Positions 5,016-31,133 of a stretch of DNA of 33,245 bases are shown here, in pieces. Every line of letters starts with the position of its first letter. Positions within the stretch are counted from its first letter, which is position 1. Source of the DNA: a virus. The stretch is from positions 1-33,245 of the IMG/VR virus record IMGVR_UViG_3300049734_000094. One strand, written 5' to 3'. Below the pieces are notes generated by a model, which made no database searches, had not been told where the DNA came from, and saw only the letters and a program-made list of their open reading frames with translations. The position numbers were made by a program, and so were the translations under genes.

Positions 5016-5513
5016 TTGCAGGTTTACCGGGAGATCATCGCCCAGGCCAAGCCCGAGGTCATCGTTGAAACGGGTTCCTGGGAGGGCGGCTCAGCAGCAT
5101 GGTTCGCCGAGTTCGCCGAAGTCATCAGCATCGACGTTTCCCTGCCCCGGCACCCTGACCCGCGAGTTCACGCGGTCATCGGGGACAGCACCGCCCCGGA
5201 GATCGCGTCCTACGTTCGAGACGAGGTACGCGGCCGGCGTTGCCTGGTGAGCCTGGATTCTGACCACAACGCGGAGCACGTGGCCCAGGAGATCGCGGCC
5301 TATGCGCCGCTCGTCACCATCGGTTCCTACCTCGTCGTGGAAGACACCGCAGTGGACGCCTACGACCTCGAACCGGGTTCGTACCCCGAAGGCGGGCCGC
5401 TCGTAGCCGTTCAGCACTTCCTCAAGACGGACAACAGGTTCGTTCCCGATCCAGAGTGCGAACGATTCCGCCTAGGGATGAATCCGGGCGGCTGGCTAAG
5501 GAGGGTTGCGTGA
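5016..5513 (+). CDS. CmcI/rhamnosyl O-methyltransferase-like protein
   Basis: Resembles the CmcI / rhamnosyl O-methyltransferase family, whose members use SAM to methylate sugars or small molecules. VETGSWEGGSAAWFAEF (starting near residue 19 from the TTG) is the family's SAM-binding loop. VISIDVS and CLVSLDSDHN follow in the expected order, then VVEDT. The only standard start in frame is TTG at 5016. The frame, however, is open back to 4842, and translating it gives FYASGAW and HIIKYPTDLQVYREII, which match the usual N-terminus of the family. Either a non-standard start near 4914 or a frameshift is used, or the gene is slightly damaged. It overlaps the epimerase gene by 4 bases (GTGA). Likely target: a glycan made by the neighbouring enzymes. 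Confidence 0.8.
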   Translation: MQVYREIIAQAKPEVIVETGSWEGGSAAWFAEFAEVISIDVSLPRHPDPRVHAVIGDSTAPEIASYVRDEVRGRRCLVSLDSDHNAEHVAQEIAAYAPLVTIGSYLVVEDTAVDAYDLEPGSYPEGGPLVAVQHFLKTDNRFVPDPECERFRLGMNPGGWLRRVA

Positions 5514-6352
5514 GGGTACTGGTAACTGGCGGCAACGGGTTCATCGGTCACTACACCTGCGACGCGCTGCGAGCGCGAGGCCACGAGGTTCTGATCTTCG
5601 ACCGCCACAACAAGCCAGACATCCTGGGCGACCTCCGCGACCCGGTAGCTGTGGACGTGGCGGTATCCGAAGTAGATGCCGTGATGCACCTGGCTGGGGT
5701 TCTCGGAACCACCGAAACCGTCCGCTATCCGCGCCCCTCGGTGGACGTGAACATCCACGGCGGCCTCAACCTGTTCGATGCCATCGCCCGCTACAAGGTC
5801 CCCGCCGTGAACATCTGCGCGGCGAACGACTGGATGTGGAACCCCTACAGCATCACGAAGAAGGCCGCCGAGCGGTTCGCCCTCATGTTCAACAAGGAGT
5901 TCGGCACCCGCATCACGCTGGTTCGCGGCTTGAACGTGTACGGACCGGGCCAGAAGGCCGCGCCGGTCAAGAAGATCATGCCGAACCTCATCCTGCCGGC
6001 ACTGGAAGGCCGCCCCATCGTCATCTACGGCGACGGCGAGCAGGTCATGGACATGATCTACGCGGAGGACGTGGCGGAAATCCTCGTCCGCGCCCTTGAG
6101 ATGGACCACGGCGTGTACGACTCAGTCATCGACGCGGGCACGGGCCGCGAGACGACGGTGAACCATCTGGCCCACATGGTCATCGAGATGGTCGGCCAGG
6201 GGAGCATCGAGCGCGTCCCCATGCGCCCCGGCGAGCCCGAGAACGCCGTCGTGCTAGGCGACCCAACCACCCTGAAACCCCTCGGCCTTACCGCCGAGGA
6301 CCTGACATCACTCGAAATCGGACTCAAGAAGACCGTCGATTCCTACAGATGA
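5510..6352 (+). CDS. NAD-dependent sugar epimerase/dehydratase (SDR)
   Basis: Extended short-chain dehydrogenase acting on nucleotide sugars. The start is GTG at 5510 behind AAGGAGG. Motifs are the Rossmann loop VTGGNGFIG (residues 5-13), AGVLGTTETV, and the catalytic Tyr-Lys pair in NPYSITKKAAERF. Later blocks are RGLNVYGPGQ and YGDGEQVMDMIYAEDVAE, both typical of the GalE/RmlB-like group. At 280 residues it is somewhat shorter than the usual 310-330. The exact sugar product cannot be read from sequence. It lies between the methyltransferase and the glycosyltransferases, forming a glycan-building cassette. Confidence 0.92.
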   Translation: MRVLVTGGNGFIGHYTCDALRARGHEVLIFDRHNKPDILGDLRDPVAVDVAVSEVDAVMHLAGVLGTTETVRYPRPSVDVNIHGGLNLFDAIARYKVPAVNICAANDWMWNPYSITKKAAERFALMFNKEFGTRITLVRGLNVYGPGQKAAPVKKIMPNLILPALEGRPIVIYGDGEQVMDMIYAEDVAEILVRALEMDHGVYDSVIDAGTGRETTVNHLAHMVIEMVGQGSIERVPMRPGEPENAVVLGDPTTLKPLGLTAEDLTSLEIGLKKTVDSYR

Positions 6353-6439
6353 TGTTCAGAAGGGCCGATCCGAAGACCGACCCCTCTGGTGGGACGCCAG
6401 TTCCCACGGGCGACACGCCCGGCGTGGCGAGAGTCTAGC
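6353..6439 (+). other. Intergenic leader before glycosyltransferase 1
   Basis: 87 bases without a gene. It holds two hairpins: GTGGGA-N7-TCCCAC around 6389-6406 and a perfect CGGGCG-ACA-CGCCCG at 6407-6421. It ends in TCTAGCATGAA across the start codon, a string repeated exactly at the second glycosyltransferase start (7361). No clear Shine-Dalgarno is seen beyond GCGAGAG. Confidence 0.5.
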
Positions 6440-7096
6440 ATGAATGTCGCGGTCATACCGGTGGCGTTCTTCGCGGAGTCCCACATCACCATGACTGACG
6501 ACTTCCTGACACGCCTGGAACCGGAGGTAGATCGCGTCGGGGTCTGGCACAACGGGGGGACGATGCCAGATGAGGGCTCGAAGATGCTCCGCGAGCACGA
6601 CGTGGACGTATTCGACGCGGCGGGTTGGCGATTCTTCGAGATGTGGAACGACGGAGCGTCGTGGGCGCTGACGCTAGGGGCTGACGTGGCCCTGTTCCTG
6701 AACAACGACATCGAATGGCCGGCGGGAGCCCTGCGAGCCCTCGCAGACGGCCTGGCGAGCGCACCGCCCGACATTGCCGTAGCGAGTCCCGATCCGGCGT
6801 CGGACTTCGTACCGGGCGAGCTTATCGATATCAACGCCACCCCGGCCTACCGGGGCCTCATGGGCTGGTGCTTCGCCGTTCGCCCCGCGTACTGGCAGAA
6901 CATCGACACCCGCTACCACGTTTGGTACGGGGACGACGAACTCGGCCTGCTGATGAACAAGGCGGGCTGGCGCTGCGTTCGCGCCAAGGGCGTCCCGGTG
7001 CAGCATCCGGTGAACGAGACGACGATGCAATACCGCGAGGGTCTCTGGGACATGCGCCGCGAGGATGAGGCGCTCTACAACTCGAAGTGGGCATGA
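6440..7096 (+). CDS. Glycosyltransferase, GT2-like (1)
   Basis: 218 residues from the ATG at 6440. The fold signature is a GT-A transferase. VAVIPVAFF at the N-terminus is the first strand. ADVALFLNNDIEWPAGAL carries the acidic metal-site region (NND in place of DXD). The stretch around GLMGWCFAVRP and YGDDELGLLMNKAGWR is typical of GT2 enzymes such as rhamnosyltransferases. The donor and acceptor are unknown. Given its position in a late operon beside the capsid gene, decoration of virion proteins is the leading inference; modification of the host surface is an alternative. Confidence 0.85.
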   Translation: MNVAVIPVAFFAESHITMTDDFLTRLEPEVDRVGVWHNGGTMPDEGSKMLREHDVDVFDAAGWRFFEMWNDGASWALTLGADVALFLNNDIEWPAGALRALADGLASAPPDIAVASPDPASDFVPGELIDINATPAYRGLMGWCFAVRPAYWQNIDTRYHVWYGDDELGLLMNKAGWRCVRAKGVPVQHPVNETTMQYREGLWDMRREDEALYNSKWA

Positions 7097-7360
7097 ACTT
7101 GCGGGGAGTGCAGAAGCGCAGCGGCAGCGGCCTTGCACGACGGCGACGAGCGACGCCCCGACGTGCCGCGGCGTCAACAACCGTCCGCTTCGACTCCCCG
7201 CGAGGATTTAGGAAAATGAGCCCCTGGCGTCTTCTGGATTTGATTTTCGCGCCCGCCTACGCTCACTTCGGTCGGGCTAGACCACTGCCTCTGAGCATGA
7301 GCAACAGGCAGCGGGGACAGCAATCCCCCGATTTCCAGTCCGCTCGCCCGGGATTCTAGC
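7097..7360 (+). other. 264-base stretch between the glycosyltransferases
   Basis: No convincing gene. A 90-codon + frame (7087-7359) runs through it, but it reads as Arg/Ser/Pro-rich noise and overlaps the previous gene. The centre (about 7205-7250) is unusually AT-rich for this genome. The right end carries CGCCCGG followed by TCTAGCATGAA, the same elements that precede glycosyltransferase 1. It could hold a promoter, a small RNA or the scar of a deleted gene. Confidence 0.45.
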
Positions 7361-8059
7361 ATGAAGATATACGCCCTGCTCAACTGGTACGACGAGCGCC
7401 CCGACTGGCTCGCCGCAACGGCGGCGTCAGCCTCCAAGTTGTGCGACGGGATCGTCGCCGTGGATGGCGCGTACTTCCTGTTCCCCGACTCCCTGAGGCA
7501 TCCGACGAGCGGAGCCGCGCAGGCCACGGCCATCATGGAAACGGCCCTCGCCCTGGGGATGAGTTGCACCATCCACGTCCCGCAGGAGCCGTGGGCAGGT
7601 AACGAGGTAGGCAAGCTCCAGCACCTGTTTGACCTCGGCGTGCCCGAGCCGTTCGAGGACTGGTTCTTCCGCATCGACGGAGACGAACTCCTGACGGACG
7701 TTGCATACGACGCCCGCGAGCGGATCGAGAAGACGGACTGCCACGCCGCCGAAGTGCGGATGTGGGTTCGCACCGACGGGGTCACGCAGCATGAGATGTG
7801 GCCGATTCGAAGGCTATGGCGGGTGGTTCCCGAGATGCGTGTTGGACCGGCCCACCACATCATGACGGGCCTGGTGGACGGCGAGCGCACCGTGCTGGCG
7901 GATTCCAAGGACCGCGAGCGCCAGACGCCCGCCCTCGACCTACCCGACGTACTGATGGAACACCGCAACCGCCAGCGGAACGCCGTGCGCCTTGAGCGCA
8001 AGGAGCGGTACTACCGCCAGCGTGACGAACTTGGAGTGGAGGCTGAATGGCCTACGTAG
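7361..8059 (+). CDS. Glycosyltransferase-like protein (2)
   Basis: 232 residues from the ATG at 7361. The order of elements is that of a GT2-like transferase: N-terminal MKIYALLNWYDE, IVAVDGAYFLFPD, and then DWFFRIDGDELL with a DGDE acidic motif near residues 107-110. The second half (WPIRRLWRV, GPAHHIM, VLMEHRNRQR) is less familiar, and the Arg-rich C-terminus overlaps the connector gene by 13 bases. Donor and acceptor are unknown. It completes the cassette of methyltransferase, epimerase and two transferases inserted between capsid and connector genes. Confidence 0.75.
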   Translation: MKIYALLNWYDERPDWLAATAASASKLCDGIVAVDGAYFLFPDSLRHPTSGAAQATAIMETALALGMSCTIHVPQEPWAGNEVGKLQHLFDLGVPEPFEDWFFRIDGDELLTDVAYDARERIEKTDCHAAEVRMWVRTDGVTQHEMWPIRRLWRVVPEMRVGPAHHIMTGLVDGERTVLADSKDRERQTPALDLPDVLMEHRNRQRNAVRLERKERYYRQRDELGVEAEWPT

Positions 8060-8694
8060 CAGCAGCAGATTTCCGCGAGCGGACGATTAAGCCGTGGACG
8101 GCCAACCTGACCCTCGATGAGAACGAGGGCACCGACGCCTATATCGACCTACTGATCACCCAGATGACGACCCAGGTGGAACTCGACCTGGCAGACGACT
8201 TCGAGCCGCCGACCCCGGATAACGACGAGATCATCACGGTCTACGGCTACGGCACGACCCGCCTGTACACGCCACGCCGCGTGCGCTCACTGACGACCGT
8301 GGAGACGCGGTGGCCCTGGACAACCACCTACACCACGCAGGCCACCACCGCTTACATCCTCAGGCAGTCGTTGAACGCCGCGGGCACGGCGATGGTGGAC
8401 GGCCGCACCGCCGACTGGCTGGATGCCCTGACGGGGCTTAGCACTGGTGTGTGGCCCTACGGGGCCGATGCCGTGCGGCTGACGGGCAAGTTCGGCTGGG
8501 CCGCCGTGCCCACCGACATCAAGCGCCTGGTGGCGCTGAAGGTCTACGACCAGGTCAAGGCGAAGTCCGACCCGCTGTCACGGATCATCGAGCGGGCGAC
8601 GGGTGACGGCGTCGTGACCTACGGGCCTTCGACGGAGATGGTGGACATCGTCAACCGCTACCGCCGCCAGCCGGCGCTGGCCTACATCGGATGA
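8047..8694 (+). CDS. Head-tail connector (gp6-like)
   Basis: 215 residues. Position and shape (mainly helical, with AADFRERT near the start and a helical block TDIKRLVALKVYDQVKAK near the end) fit adaptor proteins that sit under the portal, of the HK97 gp6 type. The central region TVYGYGTTRLYTPRRVRSLT is a feature of actinophage homologues. The start overlaps the glycosyltransferase by 13 bases, and the stop overlaps the next start (ATGA). Assignment rests mostly on order and general resemblance. Confidence 0.7.
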   Translation: MAYVAAADFRERTIKPWTANLTLDENEGTDAYIDLLITQMTTQVELDLADDFEPPTPDNDEIITVYGYGTTRLYTPRRVRSLTTVETRWPWTTTYTTQATTAYILRQSLNAAGTAMVDGRTADWLDALTGLSTGVWPYGADAVRLTGKFGWAAVPTDIKRLVALKVYDQVKAKSDPLSRIIERATGDGVVTYGPSTEMVDIVNRYRRQPALAYIG

Positions 8695-9158
8695 GTTCGC
8701 GCTGGGAGACGTTCTGCACGGCCGTTCTGGACGACCTACTCGGTAACGTGCAGGGACTTTACGGTGCGCTGCCGCACAAGCTGGCACCCTGGGACCCAGA
8801 GCACCTACAGGCCGAGGCGGGGGAGCGACACCTGGCGGTGTACCCGGTAGCCGAAGCCGTTGACGAGGCCATTCCGCTCGTGACGGACGGTGGCACGGCG
8901 CTCGTCCAGCAATACCGCATCCTGTACTGGGAGGACGCGGGGGATGAATCGTCCCGCGGGATCGCGGACGAGGCCGCGGCAGCCGACCTCTACACCCTGG
9001 CCGAGGATGTCATCGACCGTTTCTACCTGAGGACCAACGTGTTCTTGGGTTCCACGGAGTTCACGCAATACGTCGGGATGTCGCTACCGGACCGCGCCGC
9101 GTCGGTCCGCTGGTTCCAGATCACCGTCCGGGCTCGCACATCGCAGGCACTCGCATAG
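8691..9158 (+). CDS. Tail completion/terminator-like protein
   Basis: 155 residues from the ATG at 8691. It sits where the tail terminator or minor tail completion protein is found, between connector and major tail genes. Features are an N-terminal helix (WETFCTAVLDDLLGN), a strand-rich middle (TALVQQYRILYWEDAG), and the closing SVRWFQITVRART. These fit the small alpha/beta ring proteins that cap the tail tube, but no single motif is decisive. Confidence 0.6.
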   Translation: MSSRWETFCTAVLDDLLGNVQGLYGALPHKLAPWDPEHLQAEAGERHLAVYPVAEAVDEAIPLVTDGGTALVQQYRILYWEDAGDESSRGIADEAAAADLYTLAEDVIDRFYLRTNVFLGSTEFTQYVGMSLPDRAASVRWFQITVRARTSQALA

Positions 9159-9166
9159 GAGGAAGC

Positions 9167-9346
9167 GTGAGATATCGGGCATCCAAGGACGTTCAGGTGT
9201 CGGGGGCGAACGCCAAGGGCGACGCCGTCGGCCCCATCAAGTTCACCAAGGGTTCCTACGAGACGAAGGACGAGGACGAGATCGCGCTCCTCGACGCATG
9301 TGCCACCGACCCGGCTAACCCGATTGGGTTCGACCCGAAGGAGTAG
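9167..9346 (+). CDS. Small protein upstream of the major tail gene
   Basis: 59 residues from GTG at 9167, with AGGAGG four bases upstream. It has a charged, soluble composition (FTKGSYETKDEDEIALLDACA). Short proteins at this position are common in actinophages and may be head-tail joining or tail accessory factors. No recognised domain. A good ribosome site and tight packing support it as real. Confidence 0.7.
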   Translation: MRYRASKDVQVSGANAKGDAVGPIKFTKGSYETKDEDEIALLDACATDPANPIGFDPKE

Positions 9347-12902: not shown

Positions 12903-13376
12903 ATGCCCGAAGCCGAAGGCGGCGGCCGCGCCATCAAGACGACGTGGGCCGAAGAAGGCACAACGCTTGTCCCACAGGTCTGGGAGATGCTGGAACGCTA
13001 CGACGGCGGAACCACCACCGTCATCGTGGAGATCGAGTACCAGCGGGTCGGTGGGGCTACGCCGGCCGCAGCCCGCGCCATCGGCGTCGTCTTCGGAGTC
13101 TTCGGCGCGATGCCCATCGGGGTCGTGGCGGTGCGGTTCATCGAGGGAACCACGACCTGGAGCCAGCACGCCTACGGCAACGCCGTGGACTTCATGGTCG
13201 CGGGCGAGCGTCATCGGCAGCTGGCGTTCTTCCTGAACGCGAACCGCTCGGGCCTGGACATCGCGCACCTTCTCGCTGACCCGTACTTCCCCAGCCCCCT
13301 CGGTAACCACTACAACCACGTCCACGTTGACTTCCTTCCGGCCTGGGGTGGGACGCCGCCTGGACACCCGATCTAG
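12903..13376 (+). CDS. Tail-associated M15-like peptidase domain protein
   Basis: 157 residues immediately after the tape measure gene. It carries TWSQHAYGNAVDFMVAG (His89, Asp96) and NHYNHVHVDF (His139, His141, Asp143). This is the zinc-site pattern of the D-Ala-D-Ala carboxypeptidase / VldE-like C-terminal family. The middle has a hydrophobic stretch (AIGVVFGVFGAMPIGVVAV). Most likely it is carried at the tail tip to open peptidoglycan during DNA entry. It is distinct from the lysis enzyme at 17307. The zinc site is seen in sequence; activity and virion location are inferred from the family and gene position. Confidence 0.78.
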   Translation: MPEAEGGGRAIKTTWAEEGTTLVPQVWEMLERYDGGTTTVIVEIEYQRVGGATPAAARAIGVVFGVFGAMPIGVVAVRFIEGTTTWSQHAYGNAVDFMVAGERHRQLAFFLNANRSGLDIAHLLADPYFPSPLGNHYNHVHVDFLPAWGGTPPGHPI

Positions 13377-13384
13377 GAGCAAAG

Positions 13385-13570
13385 ATGGCTGAGCCTGTCG
13401 AGATTCGTCGCGTCGTCATCGAGTACGAGATCAGGATTCCTTCCGGTCCAGCACGGGCCATGATGGAGCCCGCGCGTCCCACCGTCGACGCCGACATGGT
13501 GCGGGCACTCAAGGACGAACTCATCCGCGACGGTTCGCGTAACCCGGACATCTTCGGTGGCAGGGCTTGA
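13385..13570 (+). CDS. Small hypothetical protein in the tail module
   Basis: 61 residues from the ATG at 13385, with TAGGAG upstream. Strand-rich start ([13 protein letters not shown]), then helical [12 protein letters not shown]. The end overlaps the TTG start of the next gene by 4 bases. No domain recognised. Confidence 0.7.
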
Positions 13571-14796
13571 CCCTTCCGACCCTCACGGTATCGCTGGGGC
13601 GGTCGGGCTGGATACTCGGACAGGAGGGGGCATCCGAACTCGGGGAGACGACCGACCTCGGCATCGCGTCCTACGACGACATCACGTCGAAGGTTCTTTC
13701 GGCCTCCATCCGGCGCGGGCGACAGCATGAACTCGACCGCGTCCAGGCCGGCACGGCCACGCTGAACCTCGTCAATCAAGACGGGAACTTCAACGCCGCG
13801 AACACCGCGAGCATCTACTACCCCGACATCCGGCCGATGATCCCGCTCAAGATACAGGCGACGTTCTCGGCCGTGACCTATGACCTGTTCCACGGGTTCA
13901 TCGAGGCGTGGCCCGCGAGTTGGGAAGGGGCTCACCGCCAGGGCAACGACGTGGTGCAAGTCCAGGCCGTGGATGCCCAGAAGGTTCTGAATCTCGCACA
14001 GGTCACCGTGACGCGGGACGCCGAGCTCTCCGGGGCCCGCATCGAGGCCCTGCTGGATGCCGTGGGGTGGCCCGCCGCGCTGCGGGACATCGACGCGGGA
14101 CAGTCCACCGTCCAGGCCGTGACGCTCACGGACACCACGATCCTCAACCACATCCATGATGTAGCCGCCAGCGAGTCCGGGCAGTTCTTCATCTCAGACG
14201 ACGGCAAGGCCACGTTCTTCGACCGTTTCCACATCATCCTGCTGGACGAGGACGACGACCTGTGGGGCGACGAGACGGGGGAGAAGCACTACGCCTCCAT
14301 CACCACGTCCTACGACGACCAGACTATCTGGAACGAGGTCATCGTCACCGCGCCGGGATTCGCCGACCAGACAGCGAGCGACGAGTCCAGCCAATCGTTC
14401 TTCGGCGGCCCTGCTATCGCGCCCCGCACGCTGGAGATCGGGACGTTCCTCACGTCGGAGGCCGAGATGCTGGCCCGTGCGGAGTTCCTCGTCTCGAAGT
14501 ACGCCTTCCCTGAGTTCCGCATCACGTCGATGCGGCTGGACAATGCGAGCCTTGACGATACGCAGTGGCCGCGCATCCTGTCCCACGACCTTCACCACCG
14601 TGTTCTGGTCCGCAAGCGTCCCGCCGGCGACCTGATCGAGCAGCCGTCCTTCGTTGAAGGCATCGAGTGGACGCTTGGCCCCACATCCTGGGGCCTCGTC
14701 TGGCGACTGTCATCGACCGCCCTCCAACAGGGCCAGTGGGAACTCGGCACGGTCGGACTGTCTGAACTCGGCGAGACAACCACGCTCGTCGGCTAA
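13567..14796 (+). CDS. Minor tail protein (baseplate hub-like)
   Basis: 409 residues from TTG at 13567. Homologues of this type in actinophages follow the tape measure and form the tail tip. Beta-rich with family-like blocks: [31 protein letters not shown] and [16 protein letters not shown]. The two ends carry related motifs: [19 protein letters not shown] near residue 13 and [20 protein letters not shown] at the C-terminus. The frame is long and codon use matches its neighbours. Exact role (hub or distal tail) is inferred. Confidence 0.75.
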
Positions 14797-14817: not shown

Positions 14818-15357
14818 ATGGTTTGGACCGCCCCGCGCACTTGGACCGATGGCGAGCTGGTCACCGCCGCCATCATGAACCCGCACGTCAGAGACAACCT
14901 GTTGGCCGTTGGTCCGCACCTGATAGTTCGTAAGAGCGCCGATGAATCAATCGCTTCTTCCACCGCCCTTCAGGATGACGACGCCCTGCTGATGAACGTC
15001 CCCGCGAACGAGGTGTGGCAGTTCCAGTTGCTGGTGCGCTACGAAGCCGACGCGGCCGCCGATATCCTCGTTTCATTCGGCCTACCGAGCGGCGGGCGAA
15101 TCATCTCCCAGTTCGTCGCGAACACCGGGGGCGGCTCGTTGCAGACGAATGACTGGGACATAACGACCACCGATGGAACGTCCGTTAGTGCTCAGGGAAG
15201 CGGCGCGGGCGTCGGGAAACTCCTCAACATCAACGGCCTATGGATCAACGGTGGGACCGGAGGGAACTACCGATTCCGATGGGCGCAGGCGTCATCCTCT
15301 GGAACCGCGACGGTGGTGAAGGCGAACTCGCTACTGTACGCCGTGAAGCTTGCCTAG
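14818..15357 (+). CDS. Tail fibre/appendage protein
   Basis: 179 residues from the ATG at 14818 behind GGAAGGAA. It opens with WTAPRTWTDGELVTAAIMN, a common phage tail-appendage N-terminus that attaches to the tail. The rest is strand-rich, with many Gly/Ser/Thr (ISQFVANTGGGSLQTND, GLWINGGTGGNYRF), ending in NSLLYAVKLA, like trimeric fibre or appendage tips. Receptor binding is plausible. Confidence 0.75.
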   Translation: MVWTAPRTWTDGELVTAAIMNPHVRDNLLAVGPHLIVRKSADESIASSTALQDDDALLMNVPANEVWQFQLLVRYEADAAADILVSFGLPSGGRIISQFVANTGGGSLQTNDWDITTTDGTSVSAQGSGAGVGKLLNINGLWINGGTGGNYRFRWAQASSSGTATVVKANSLLYAVKLA

Positions 15358-15856
15358 CTGGTCCCCCGGTGGGGACTTCGGTTCCCCCACCTATTCCATC
15401 CCGATTCCGGTGGTGGACGGTGTGCGTTCCACGTTCATCGGGGAACGCCGCAGGCGGTGGCGAGAGGCCCTGGATATCGCCCTGGAGAAGTGGGCGCTAC
15501 CATTCGACCTGTCCTACCGCCCGGAGGACGACCAGCCTTTCGTCGTCAACGACGAGACGATCAGCCAGAACAGCGTCAATCCGCTCATCATCACGAACGC
15601 TATCGCGGTCGTGCGGGCGCACTTCTCCGTACCAAGTGATTCCGCCGGCTGGATCGAGGAGATGACCGGCGGTATCTGCCTGCTGACACCGTGGCGGGCG
15701 TGGTGGATGCAGGGAGGGAGGTCTTCCATCGTTGCCGTCGCCGCGCACGAGGTCGGTCACGCCCTCGGATTCGGACACGGCGGCACGGGCAGCATGGCGG
15801 GGGCAGGAAGGCCGAACGATGAGGAACGCGCACTAGCGCAGGACTACTACCTATGA
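15350..15856 (+). CDS. Metzincin-type zinc metalloprotease (1)
   Basis: 168 residues from TTG at 15350, overlapping the fibre gene. VAVAAHEVGHALGFGHG contains the full metzincin consensus HEXXHXXGXXH at residues 133-143, followed by GSMAG, a candidate Met-turn. Catalytic residues would be Glu134 with His133, His137 and His143. It looks like a compact matrixin (M10) catalytic domain without propeptide. It is related along its length to the gene that follows: both share PSW..GG, P-VVD, RW/KWR, AL..W and the HEXGHXLG site. No signal peptide, so delivery in the virion or release at lysis is likely. Target proteins are unknown. Confidence 0.88.
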   Translation: MPSWSPGGDFGSPTYSIPIPVVDGVRSTFIGERRRRWREALDIALEKWALPFDLSYRPEDDQPFVVNDETISQNSVNPLIITNAIAVVRAHFSVPSDSAGWIEEMTGGICLLTPWRAWWMQGGRSSIVAVAAHEVGHALGFGHGGTGSMAGAGRPNDEERALAQDYYL

Positions 15857-16425
15857 CGCACGGCCCGCCGCCCTCCTGGTTCGGGGGTTCGGCGATGGTT
15901 TGGCCTCAGTGGCCCGTCATCCCCGTGGTTGACACCATCGCCCTCGGGTTGCGACCCCGCAAGGCGGACAAATGGCGACGGAATCGCGATAGGGCACTGG
16001 CGTCGTGGTCAAGCGCCCCGCTCTTGATGCTGACCGAGGAAGACCCCGCACTACATACCACGTTCGACCCGGACTACGCCGACGAGGAAGCGGAACTGCG
16101 CCGCCACATCATCCCCGGCGCGCTGCGGTTCATGCGGGGGAACTACCACGGCCGGCAGGGCACCGCGTGGTCCTATCCTTCACCCCCCGGTTCGGTGGTC
16201 ATGGTGTGGATCGGCCTGGTGTGGTGGCAGGCGACGTCACCCTGGCGTCGGCAGTTCGTGGTGACACACGAAGCTGGCCACGGCTTGGGGCTGAACCATC
16301 GCACGGACAGCACCGCCAGCGTGATGTATTCGGTGGCCGACATGGGCGGGCCGTCGAACCAGCCCGATCAGCACGACCTCGAATCCCTGGAGGATTACTT
16401 TGCCCCAGAAGTGGGACCCGGCTAG
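15853..16425 (+). CDS. Metzincin-type zinc metalloprotease (2), paralogue of the previous gene
   Basis: 190 residues from the ATG at 15853, overlapping gene 1 by 4 bases. FVVTHEAGHGLGLNHR carries HEXXHXXGXXH at residues 139-149, with Glu140 as catalytic base and SVMYSV (156-161) as the Met-turn. All zinc ligands are intact. The N-terminus (PPPSWFGG, PVIPVVD, DKWRRNRDRALASW) mirrors its neighbour, so the pair arose by tandem duplication with strong divergence. No secretion signal. The same uncertainty applies to substrate; cell-surface proteins or the phage's own tail parts are candidates. Confidence 0.88.
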   Translation: MTHGPPPSWFGGSAMVWPQWPVIPVVDTIALGLRPRKADKWRRNRDRALASWSSAPLLMLTEEDPALHTTFDPDYADEEAELRRHIIPGALRFMRGNYHGRQGTAWSYPSPPGSVVMVWIGLVWWQATSPWRRQFVVTHEAGHGLGLNHRTDSTASVMYSVADMGGPSNQPDQHDLESLEDYFAPEVGPG

Positions 16426-16915
16426 GCGAGAGTGGGTCGATGCTTTCGCGGACGCGCCGACTACGAAGCCGCGCCGCTGGCCGCTGACCGTGATCGTTCT
16501 CGGCCTGCTGACCGTCGCCGTCGGCTCGTTCGCGCTAACCCGTGGGGGAGAGGACCGGGCTCCGGTGACCCCCTCTCCTCGGCCCTCTCCCTCACTCGGA
16601 ATCACGCAAGCGCAACTCGACAAGCTCGGTGACAGCATCGAGGCCCGCTATCGCTCCGGGGACACGGAGGTGGCCCAGGCGCTCCTCGACAACTTCATGG
16701 ACGCCCATCCGGAGTGCGTGTCCGCCGTCATGGGCGCGGGGGAGGGGCCCCTCAGGACCGTCCTGGCCCAGGCGGAGAGCGTGTCCGAGCAACTCGAGCA
16801 GACCGCCCCGTACCCGAACGCTTACACCACCACCATCATCGTCCCGGTGTCCGAGGAAGGCTCCCCGGTGGTTCGGGGTGCCGTACTAGGTGTCTCGTGC
16901 AGGGAGGGAACATGA
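16400..16915 (+). CDS. Membrane-anchored hypothetical protein
   Basis: 171 residues from TTG at 16400, with GGAGG five bases upstream, inside the end of the protease gene. A cytosolic N-terminus (WDPARREWVDAF) precedes one helix, WPLTVIVLGLLTVAVGSFAL (27-46). Then comes a Pro/Ser linker (VTPSPRPSPSLG) and an outer domain of about 100 residues with Cys near both ends (HPECVS and VSCREG), possibly a disulfide. It begins the lysis region. An accessory lysis or host-envelope role is possible. Confidence 0.75.
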   Translation: MPQKWDPARREWVDAFADAPTTKPRRWPLTVIVLGLLTVAVGSFALTRGGEDRAPVTPSPRPSPSLGITQAQLDKLGDSIEARYRSGDTEVAQALLDNFMDAHPECVSAVMGAGEGPLRTVLAQAESVSEQLEQTAPYPNAYTTTIIVPVSEEGSPVVRGAVLGVSCREGT

Positions 16916-17134
16916 GTGTGGAGTCCAGCAAGCGGCCCCAGCCTTGCCGATGTGGAAGCGAGGTTGATTGCTGCCGTGAAGATGGTGAAGGAACTGTCCA
17001 GCCGACTAGACACCCTGGAGACCGAACTCTCTCGGTTGCTCAGCATGGAACTGCGCCCCGAGCGCGGCGTTGGGACACCTTCACCGACACCGACGCCCGA
17101 GACATCTTCTGGAACGAGTTCTGGGGGTGAGTGA
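16916..17134 (+). CDS. Coiled-coil small protein
   Basis: 72 residues from GTG at 16916, with GGGAGGG upstream. Contains a clear heptad coil, VKELSSRLDTLETELSRLL, followed by a Pro/Thr/Ser-rich tail. A competing frame starts at ATG 16912 and ends at 17130, but its product is Cys/Arg-rich and featureless, so the coiled-coil frame is preferred. Coil plus the following one-helix protein recalls lysis accessory proteins of the XhlA kind, but this one has no membrane segment. Confidence 0.65.
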   Translation: MWSPASGPSLADVEARLIAAVKMVKELSSRLDTLETELSRLLSMELRPERGVGTPSPTPTPETSSGTSSGGE

Positions 17135-17310
17135 TGGACGTTCTGATGCCCCTCATCTTCGCCGCCATCATCCTGTTCGGGGGTATCAAGCTCGTCAGCA
17201 TGGCGTTCGACCGCAAGCGCCGCGAGAAGGCGGCTGAGTTGGCTAAGGACTTCGACAAGAAGTTCCGCGAGATCATCGCGGGCGAGTGGGGGAAGGACGA
17301 CAAGAAGTGA
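17134..17310 (+). CDS. One-helix membrane protein near the endolysin
   Basis: 58 residues from the ATG at 17134. One N-terminal transmembrane helix (VLMPLIFAAIILFGGIKLV), then a charged tail (DRKRREKAAELAKDFDKKF). It overlaps the endolysin start by 4 bases. Candidate pinholin-like or lysis accessory protein by size, topology and place. Too short to assign further. Confidence 0.7.
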   Translation: MDVLMPLIFAAIILFGGIKLVSMAFDRKRREKAAELAKDFDKKFREIIAGEWGKDDKK

Positions 17311-17759
17311 GCAACTGCTCGAACGGGGACTACAAGACACCATATGGCACGGTGACCGCCCGCTATCCGGGCCGGGTCACTGCGCCGCCGAACCTGCGCC
17401 GATATGAGCGCACGGTCGGGGATGTTGTCCTTCAGGGACCTGCGCTGCGCTCGTTCAAGGAGGCCGAGGAGGCCGCGACACCCAGGCGGATGCGCCGCAA
17501 GGGCAAGGTCCTCCCGATCCTCATCACGGGTGTGGGCTACCGCTCCTACGCGCTTCAGAAGAAGTACTACGACTCCGACCGTTCGGGTCGCTACGCGAAC
17601 CCCGACTGCTCGCTGCATTGTGAAGGGCTTGCCATCGACATCAACATGAACCAGTCCGCCATCAGGCGGGCCAGGATCGCCTACCACCTCAAGAAGCGCG
17701 GTTGGCACTACGGCGTGAGCGGCGAACCCTGGCACGCGAGTTTCAGGCTCAGCGGATGA
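17307..17759 (+). CDS. Endolysin, M15/VanY-type D,D- or L,D-peptidase
   Basis: 150 residues from GTG at 17307. Cuts peptide links in peptidoglycan at lysis. Zinc site: SLHCEGLAIDIN gives His104 and Asp111, and GEPWHASF gives Glu140, Trp142 and His143. GYRSYALQKKYY (77-88) is the family block ahead of it. The whole protein is one catalytic domain with no separate wall-binding domain. No signal peptide, so it needs a holin, for which small membrane proteins lie on both sides. Confidence 0.87.
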   Translation: MSNCSNGDYKTPYGTVTARYPGRVTAPPNLRRYERTVGDVVLQGPALRSFKEAEEAATPRRMRRKGKVLPILITGVGYRSYALQKKYYDSDRSGRYANPDCSLHCEGLAIDINMNQSAIRRARIAYHLKKRGWHYGVSGEPWHASFRLSG

Positions 17760-17944
17760 ACGAGTTCATCGAGCGCGAGTGCCTTATCAAGGGCTGCAAC
17801 GCCCCCGCGTCGGTCGGCGGGGAGTGCGTGTTCGACGCCGTGGGATTCAGCGGTGATGACGAAACGGTAGTCGCGGAGCGCATCACCTGCGCCGCGGGCC
17901 ACTTCTACCACGTCATCAACGAGCAGAAGACGGTGAAGAAGTGA
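17756..17944 (+). CDS. Small Cys-containing protein
   Basis: 62 residues from ATG at 17756, overlapping the endolysin stop. Pattern CLIKGCNAPASVGGEC and ITCAAGHFYHV suggests a zinc- or disulfide-bound fold. Function not recognised. Confidence 0.7.
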   Translation: MNEFIERECLIKGCNAPASVGGECVFDAVGFSGDDETVVAERITCAAGHFYHVINEQKTVKK

Positions 17945-18159
17945 GTAACGACGAGGACCCCCGCTTCAAACACCGCCGCATCGACTGGGACGTGCGGGGA
18001 ATCCTCGCCATCCTGGCCGTGATCGGGGCCTTCGGCCTGGCCGGCGCGCAGTTGTTCCTCGGCCTCGGCTCGGACATCCCGGCCTGGGCCGCCACGCTGG
18101 TTGGTGCCGTCGCCGGGTTCTACTTCGGAAGCCGTGGAGGGAGCAATGGCTACCACTGA
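17941..18159 (+). CDS. Two-helix membrane protein, holin candidate
   Basis: 72 residues from GTG at 17941. Charged N-terminus (DEDPRFKHRRIDWDVRG), then two hydrophobic segments: ILAILAVIGAFGLAGAQLFL and PAWAATLVGAVAGFYFGSRG. Size, topology and place behind the endolysin make it one of two holin candidates; the other starts at 18779. Confidence 0.7.
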   Translation: MSNDEDPRFKHRRIDWDVRGILAILAVIGAFGLAGAQLFLGLGSDIPAWAATLVGAVAGFYFGSRGGSNGYH

Positions 18160-26469: not shown

Positions 26470-26864
26470 ACGGCCGCGCCAAGGGGCGGGCGTTCGAGCG
26501 TGAGGTGGCGCTCCTGTTCGGCGGTAAGCGAACCCCGCTATCCGGTGCCGCTGGTGGCAACGACATCACCTTTGAACCCGACGGCATCTGGGCGGACTGG
26601 GGTATGGAGGCCAAGCGCCGCGCGCGTCTCCCGGTGCTCGTCACCGCAGCGCTCGATCAGGCCGAGGCGGCGCTGCCACTGGGGACGCGCAAGCGGCCGG
26701 CGGTAGTCATGCGGGAGGACTCGGGGCGGATGGTGTTCGTGGCTTACGCATCCGATGTGAAGACATGGTGTGAGGCGCTGGCCGAGATCGGGGAGTCGCA
26801 CCGCCTGCGCCCGCTTGCCCGCGAACTGCGCGCCATAGCGGCGCAGCTGGAGGCTATGAGGTGA
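26466..26864 (+). CDS. PD-(D/E)XK nuclease, Holliday-junction-resolvase-like
   Basis: 132 residues from ATG at 26466. KGRAFEREVALLFG supplies the N-terminal Glu helix, GGNDITFEPDGIWADWGMEAK supplies Asp33 and the E-x-K pair (Glu48, Lys50), and AALDQAEAAL with PAVVMREDSGRMVFV closes the fold. Size and pattern match small phage resolvases that clear branched DNA before packaging. Substrate not shown by sequence. Confidence 0.8.
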   Translation: MNGRAKGRAFEREVALLFGGKRTPLSGAAGGNDITFEPDGIWADWGMEAKRRARLPVLVTAALDQAEAALPLGTRKRPAVVMREDSGRMVFVAYASDVKTWCEALAEIGESHRLRPLARELRAIAAQLEAMR

Positions 26865-27157
26865 AAGCCGAAGACCTCGAATACGACTGGACCCTGAAGG
26901 CCCGCTGCCGCGGTGTCGATCCCGAATGGTTCTTCCCGAAGGGTGACCCGAATGGCCTCACTCACGGCGAGCGTCGGGCGAAGGCCATCTGCACCGCCTG
27001 CCCGGTGCGCCGTGAATGCCTCGCGTATTGCCTGGAACACGAGGGGCTGGTGGCCCGCGACTACAAGTTCGGGATATGGGGTGGGACCACGCCGTCCGAG
27101 CGGCGGCGGGTCGATGGTCTTTCGCTTGGCCTTCGCCTGGAGGTGCTGCTGGGATGA
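26861..27157 (+). CDS. whiB: WhiB-family regulator
   Basis: 98 residues from GTG at 26861. Iron-sulfur transcription factor limited to Actinobacteria and their phages. Cys16, then ICTACPVRREC gives Cys44, Cys47 and Cys53 (C-x2-C-x5-C) for the 4Fe-4S cluster. GIWGGTTPSERRR (71-83) is the turn and basic DNA/sigma-binding end. DPEWFFP is also typical. Phage WhiB proteins can compete with host WhiB at the housekeeping sigma factor; here it is probably an early host-control gene. It strongly supports an actinobacterial host. Confidence 0.92.
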   Translation: MKAEDLEYDWTLKARCRGVDPEWFFPKGDPNGLTHGERRAKAICTACPVRRECLAYCLEHEGLVARDYKFGIWGGTTPSERRRVDGLSLGLRLEVLLG

Positions 27158-30221: not shown

Positions 30222-31133
30222 ATGCACTCGCCCTGGTACGACCCGCTTCTACCAGCGGCACAGCAACAGGCGACTGGGGGACAAACCGTTTCCGGTGTGG
30301 TTCTCAGCGTTACTCCCACCCTACCCGCCGGGTCTCTTTCGCATACCGTCACCGGGGCGCTGCTCACCATCACCCCGTCCATCCCCACGGGCGCACTCCA
30401 GTGGCAACTAACCGGCGTCACCATCACCGCAACACCGACGCTGCCTACTGGCGCACTCGAACACAGGATCACCGGAGTCACCCTCGCGGCGTCCCCGACG
30501 CTCCCAGCGGGCTCGGTTACATCAGGAGTTCAGCTAGACGGCGTAACGCTCGGCGTTACCCCGACGATTCCTACCGCCACCCTCCGACATGTTCTAACCG
30601 GCATCACGCTCACCGCAACACCCACCACCCCGCAGGCAACACTTCAACATCGAATCACCGGCGTTACGCTGACGGCTACCCCCACGATCCCCACAGCCAC
30701 CCTAGGGCATGTGGTCACCGGGGTAACAGTTACCGCTACGCCGACCCTGCCACAGGGCTCAGTCACTCAGGGTGTGCAGGTCACGGGCGTCACCCTGGTG
30801 GTTGCGCCCACCATCCCGACGGCGACGCTCCGGCTTATCCTGACGGGTGTAACGCTCACCGCAACGCCCACGTTGCCCCAGGCAGCGCTCCAATGGCAAC
30901 TCGGCGGGGTTACGCTCACTGTCACACCTATCTTCCCACAGGCGACACTGCAACATCTGCTCACGGGCGTCCTGCTGTCGGTCCTACCGGAACTGCCCAT
31001 CGCGGCGATCACGCAGGAAGGAGACGCCGGCCCAGTGCCTGGCCCAACCCGAGTGGTGACCGGGAACCCAAATGCGGTTACAGGCGGTGCTCGCAACTTG
31101 GTGACTACCGGCGCAGGTCAGACGGAGGCATAG
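30222..31133 (+). CDS. Twelve-repeat beta-solenoid-like protein
   Basis: 303 residues from ATG at 30222. Residues 24-267 are 12 tandem units of 20 residues (two have 22) with consensus TGVTLTATPTLPTATLQHR. Each unit has a Val/Thr/Leu strand, a Pro turn and a second strand. This suggests a rod-like solenoid, likely a tail fibre shaft or decoration. A Gly/Pro/Thr-rich end follows. The units differ enough at DNA level to show age. Confidence 0.8.
   Translation: MHSPWYDPLLPAAQQQATGGQTVSGVVLSVTPTLPAGSLSHTVTGALLTITPSIPTGALQWQLTGVTITATPTLPTGALEHRITGVTLAASPTLPAGSVTSGVQLDGVTLGVTPTIPTATLRHVLTGITLTATPTTPQATLQHRITGVTLTATPTIPTATLGHVVTGVTVTATPTLPQGSVTQGVQVTGVTLVVAPTIPTATLRLILTGVTLTATPTLPQAALQWQLGGVTLTVTPIFPQATLQHLLTGVLLSVLPELPIAAITQEGDAGPVPGPTRVVTGNPNAVTGGARNLVTTGAGQTEA
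30291..31022 (+). repeat. 12 tandem 60-bp coding repeats
   Basis: Repeat unit of 60 bases; units 4 and 8 are 66. Units share GTSACSCTSACCGC and CCSACSCTBCC (IUPAC) and encode the 20-residue repeats. Such arrays change length by slippage or recombination between phages. Confidence 0.8.

Follow-up and report, generated by a model that had tools for sequence, protein, structure and literature searches.

Two metzincin genes between the tail and lysis genes of a viral contig, and their possible accessory role in phage lysis

Phage lysis is usually accounted for by a holin and a peptidoglycan hydrolase, joined in Gram-negatives by a spanin. A metzincin that bears on the process is Mtz of Listeria, a phage-derived, secreted protease that pairs with the TIMP-like lipoprotein Tim (PMC8235301). 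The mtz-tim genes are often located downstream of the holin-lysin genes of prophages, and Mtz and Tim increase the sensitivity to lysis by phage, an effect that depends on protease activity (PMC8235301). Here we report on two adjacent metzincin genes, P1 and P2, of the viral contig IMGVR_UViG_3300049734_000094 (IMG/VR), whose 33,245 nucleotides were analysed in full and are referred to as the window. Like Mtz, P1 and P2 combine a HExxHxxGxxH zinc site with a Met-turn, are accessory and are encoded near lysis genes (PMC8235301). They differ from Mtz in that there are two of them, encoded upstream of the endolysin gene and between tail and lysis genes, and in that no TIMP-like partner was recognised, the neighbouring gene at 16400-16915 being judged by its family matches. 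Mtz also has a Sec signal peptide, which is absent from every copy in this genomic position but present in relatives encoded outside the operon. The original prediction for this locus stands as regards metzincin identity, absence of signal peptides and release at lysis, fails as regards rarity in phages, and finds no support as regards a heterodimer; its tandem paralogy was overstated and its tail module is half right.

The window contains terminase, portal, capsid, tail tube, tape measure and Dit-like genes (Table 1), and its WhiB gene points to an actinobacterial host; it yielded no Rfam match and no tRNA. The M15-like gene is a probable endolysin gene and the downstream membrane protein a candidate holin, as judged from motifs and sub-threshold matches. 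A second M15-like peptidase gene (12903-13376), located between the tape measure and Dit-like genes, is a candidate tail lysin. Between the capsid and the connector/tail genes (5016-8059) are genes for a CmcI-like methyltransferase, an NAD-dependent epimerase and two glycosyltransferase-like proteins, possibly for glycosylation of the virion or capsid; the layout is similar in Pontimonas phage phiPsal1, where methyltransferase and glycosyltransferase genes lie ahead of the neck gene. A protein of short repeats (GVTLTATPTLPxxxLxHxIT) is encoded at 30222-31133 and has a counterpart with 51% identity on the related contig L003.

Table 1. Coordinates of features in the window
Feature	Position	Strand	Evidence or remark
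Dit-like/baseplate protein	13567-14796	+	phrog_5313, E 1e-30; anchor for finding related phages
Small tail protein, RBP-like	14818-15357	+	phrog_24062; last tail gene before the slot; stop overlaps P1 start
P1, metzincin	15350-15856	+	TTG start, 168 aa; stop overlaps P2 start
P1 zinc site HEVGHALGFGH, residues 133-143	15746-15778		Sequence
P1 Met-turn, M149 in GSMAG	15794-15796 (Met)		Sequence
P2, metzincin	15853-16425	+	ATG start, 190 aa; begins inside P1 stop
P2 zinc site HEAGHGLGLNH, residues 139-149	16267-16299		Sequence
P2 Met-turn, M158 in SVMYS	16324-16326 (Met)		Sequence
Predicted single-span membrane protein	16400-16915	+	Overlaps P2 end; weak TPR_16 the sole family match
Small predicted membrane protein, lysis region	17131-17310	+	Sequence
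M15/VanY-like peptidase, probable endolysin	17286-17759	+	SLHCEGLAID and EPWH motifs, sub-threshold matches
Small membrane protein, holin candidate	17941-18159	+	Sequence; no family match
WhiB-like regulator	26861-27157	+	PF02467, E 1.2e-20; phrog_472, E 4e-22

Both open reading frames are real and encode, as predicted, the complete zinc motif and Met-turn of the metzincin clan (MA(M)). The motif HExxHxxGxxH did not occur in any of 200 first-order Markov sequences matching the composition of the window, which contains only one other copy, read antisense to the tail-tube gene. The residues H, E, H, G and H and the methionine of the Met-turn are invariant in P1, P2 and all aligned relatives, so that the conservation of the zinc residues, on which the prediction could have failed, is borne out. 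The proteins are homologous to each other (about 25% identity; E about 1e-5, and 7e-9 in a second comparison). P2 and its counterpart on L003 score 26.6 and 27.6 bits against Pfam Peptidase_M10 (PF00413), above the cut-off of 24, and P1 scores slightly under it (21.0 bits); PHROGs holds no family for either P1 or P2.

The matrixins (PF00413, M10A) are the best Pfam family for P1 and P2, and they also provide the best solved structures. AlphaFold models computed from an alignment of nine phage sequences (pLDDT 62 and 75, i.e. moderate; TM-scores about 0.5) matched the catalytic domains of matrix metalloproteinases and karilysin in Foldseek with a probability of 1.0 (E 3.5e-5 for P2 and 4.6e-4 for P1), the best PDB matches being those of MMP-1, -8, -10 and -13 and karilysin. 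At this moderate pLDDT, the structural elements of the models follow one another as in metzincins (mixed sheet, active-site helix, C-terminal helix), and both proteins are predicted to adopt the metzincin fold. The top viral predicted structure matching P1, a Zn-dependent protease of Lactobacillus phage 3-521 (A0A4Y5FGF2, E 6.7e-4), is a longer protein with 14% identity. The similarity to matrixins is mostly restricted to the zinc helix and Met-turn, and P1 and P2 differ from classical M10A enzymes by lacking a signal peptide, a propeptide and a cysteine switch: no PRCGxPD-like motif is present in their sequences, and their N-termini have no hydrophobic stretch, in agreement with the prediction that neither has a signal peptide. 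The catalytic domain starts at most about 20 residues from the N-terminus, and the proteins at this genomic position are bare catalytic domains in which no docking domain was seen.

Metzincins had been considered rare in phages, but they are common in viral contigs, where a motif pattern scan matched at least 120 stretches. Among the matches listed, 109 open reading frames in 108 loci, forming 88 clusters at 70% identity, had both motif and Met; 41 of the 88 clusters had a hydrophobic N-terminal segment, 11 of 66 upstream neighbours matched endolysin families, and no function was enriched among downstream neighbours. These eleven belong to contigs that we call marine-type from the appearance of their sequences, not from a habitat record. 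In them, the gene of an endolysin with Amidase_2 and PG_binding_1 domains precedes that of a metzincin with a hydrophobic N-terminus, the two being mostly no more than 35 bases apart. These metzincins (L011, L058, L128 and others) resemble P1 and P2 in being encoded directly beside an endolysin gene, but they lie downstream of it, have the hydrophobic N-terminus and are distantly related in sequence. L011, L016, L023, L047, L058, L061, L064, L068, L071, L091, L094 and L128 each encode such a metzincin, about 180 aa long, immediately behind the Amidase_2 endolysin. The short hydrophobic N-terminus of the marine-type proteins often ends in LLSC, a possible lipobox, and their gene occupies the position in which one might look for an o-spanin lipoprotein. 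An unrelated viral contig of 240 kb carries tandem, diverged metzincins, both with signal-like N-termini (L076:5488-6087 and 6065-6676). Closer homologues of the pair are few: tblastn found none in cultured phages and, with P2, none in plasmids, and a search of GTDB genomes gave no match for P1 and only two weak matrixin matches for P2 (L007 and L008). Among annotated phages, only one of Pontimonas and one of Microcystis have a similar Dit-like gene, and in neither is a metzincin annotated downstream of it.

Relatives of the window were gathered with the Dit-like protein (80 loci), and the slot between the RBP-like gene and the endolysin gene was read with profiles for these two proteins and for metzincins. 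Six phages, namely the window, L003, L135, L145, L149 and L146 (the latter identical to L207 and with extra tail genes before the slot metzincin), share the gene order Dit-like, RBP-like, metzincin(s), endolysin. L135 has two tandem RBP-like genes (8210-9300) before the slot instead of one. The slot holds one or two metzincins. The search for the pair in other phages succeeded with L003, which has the tandem genes at the corresponding position, with 77% identity to the window for P1 and about 44% for P2; since most relatives carry a single copy, the suggested heterodimer is unsupported. In L136, L137, L139/L140 and L153, the M15-like gene comes next after the RBP-like gene and no metzincin was found, so the slot metzincin is not needed for building the virion. 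Where no genes are inserted, the last metzincin gene and the endolysin gene overlap at their stop and start codons, respectively (5/5 relatives: GTGA in L003, TGATG in L135, ATGA in L145, L149 and L146), and the endolysin is M15-like in three cases and amidase-like in two. The gene pair does adjoin the last tail gene, but the assumed tail module is really a tail/lysis boundary, coupled in relatives to the endolysin start. An accessory gene that is present or absent next to an endolysin gene recalls mtz, except that it lies upstream rather than downstream.

Slot metzincins and related copies elsewhere differ in their export signals. A hydrophobic N-terminal segment is absent from all eight slot metzincins (KD15 at most 1.3) and present in all four copies outside the slot operon (KD15 2.2 to 2.4), which are those of L149 and L138, with HTH and membrane anchor, and of L162 and L150, with signal peptides. 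The exact probability of this split is 1/495 if the copies are independent, and as they are few and partly related, the value is indicative only. An XRE-type gene is found in the region of the L162 copy, and the L150 copy is encoded on the opposite strand; G002/L149 has a relative of P1 near the integrase gene in addition to a separate slot metzincin. In L149 (9032-9898, minus strand) and L138 (13429-14370, minus strand), the metzincin follows an HTH and membrane anchor beside a tyrosine recombinase gene, and such fusions are possibly membrane-anchored regulator-proteases. With their XRE-type gene or HTH fusion beside the integrase, the exported relatives in L162, L138 and L149 resemble the switch-linked mtz locus of Listeria. 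Slot P1 begins, with WSPGG, at the point where the mature domain of the secreted L162 protein starts, just past the signal peptide of the latter. Together with the exported relatives, this suggests that the metzincin domain acts outside the cytoplasm and that slot copies exit by another route, and we infer that they leave with the endolysin or on the virion.

The catalytic-domain tree joined P1 of the window and of L003 (99/97) and grouped them with the secreted L162 and L150 (85/90), and P2 was not sister to P1, although deep branches are weak. The description as tandem paralogues is right in that the genes are adjacent and homologous, but it goes too far: a recent tandem duplication is unsupported by this tree with its weak deep branches, and the pair may have been assembled rather than duplicated in place, since P1 groups with secreted phage metzincins and P2 does not group with P1. 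Between the window and L003, P1 has a dN of 0.19 and a dS of 0.96 (dN/dS about 0.2), compared to a dN of 0.54 to 0.82 at similar dS for neighbouring genes; P1 is slow-evolving and under purifying selection. The slot metzincins of L145 and L149 have a dN/dS of about 0.1. A recent transfer as the cause of the 77% identity of P1 was rejected because identity at fourfold sites is nearly as low as that of the genes around it; a cassette may have been exchanged at an earlier time, as the Dit-like protein of L003 is 70% identical to that of G002 and 39% to that of the window.

We give an even chance to the reading that P1 and P2 are lysis-accessory zinc endopeptidases that leave the cell with the endolysin. 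They would be translated late from the tail-lysis operon, be kept in the cytoplasm like the endolysin because they lack an export signal, and escape through the lesion made by the holin or when the cell bursts; once outside, they would cleave cell-wall or cell-surface proteins, which would speed rupture and free progeny from debris. Release at lysis was one option of the original prediction, and the absence of signal peptides and the endolysin coupling in relatives support it. A lysis role is favoured because the metzincin stop overlaps the endolysin start whichever type of endolysin follows, because the metzincin is present in some phages and absent from others that retain the slot, and because of the export contrast and the WSPGG start of P1; further, slot proteins are bare catalytic domains under purifying selection in both comparisons, adjacency to endolysin genes recurs independently in marine-type contigs, and the protease activity of Listeria Mtz raises phage lysis (PMC8235301). 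Against it, three small genes separate P2 from the M15-like gene in the window, and the analogy with Mtz is limited by the latter being secreted and working with a TIMP-like partner.

The slot also touches a tail gene, so that position alone would fit a virion protein. The main rival, which we rank below a lysis role and consider rather unlikely, is that P1 and P2 are virion proteins located at the tail tip, where they would cleave proteins of the host surface during adsorption and entry. The overlap of P1 with the RBP-like gene, the missing signal peptides and the M15-like gene at 12903 in the tail region all agree with this, but the slot is empty in several close relatives, nothing beyond the catalytic domain is available for docking, the coupling is consistently to the endolysin start, and related copies that are exported or membrane-anchored from lysogeny regions are a poor fit for a virion part. 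Less probable still is that the proteases act after release on other cells, stripping receptors from debris or neighbours or digesting biofilm or competitor proteins, so that the phage gains after lysis; the existence of exported relatives, among them the secreted ones of other phages, and a presence/absence pattern typical of accessory genes are compatible with this, but it explains the tight endolysin coupling no better than lysis does. Action inside the host, in the processing of structural proteins or in shut-off, would agree with the missing export signal and the late-operon position, but is very improbable given the exported relatives, the dispensable slot copies and the broad attack on cytosolic proteins that an active metzincin without propeptide would presumably make. 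Hardly credible is a decayed, non-catalytic metzincin domain kept as a binding module, for which the sub-threshold Pfam score and short zinc-to-Met spacing of P1 could be cited, but which is at odds with the invariant active-site residues in all members and a dN/dS of about 0.2.

If a role in lysis holds, metzincins may form a class of phage lysis proteins that recurs, cleaving proteins as partners of the endolysin and recruited separately in the slot phages, the marine-type phages and Listeria phages, with one family moving between an exported form in lysogeny regions and a non-exported, endolysin-coupled form by losing exactly its signal peptide; we put this forward tentatively, as possible but doubtful. 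A protease co-translated with the endolysin would give lysis an additional step, directed against proteins of the wall or surface. Such proteases would represent new lysis enhancers and give a reason why many uncultured phages carry metzincins, and the slot that is filled in some relatives and empty in others, along with the contrast in export signals, makes the proposed role in lysis testable.
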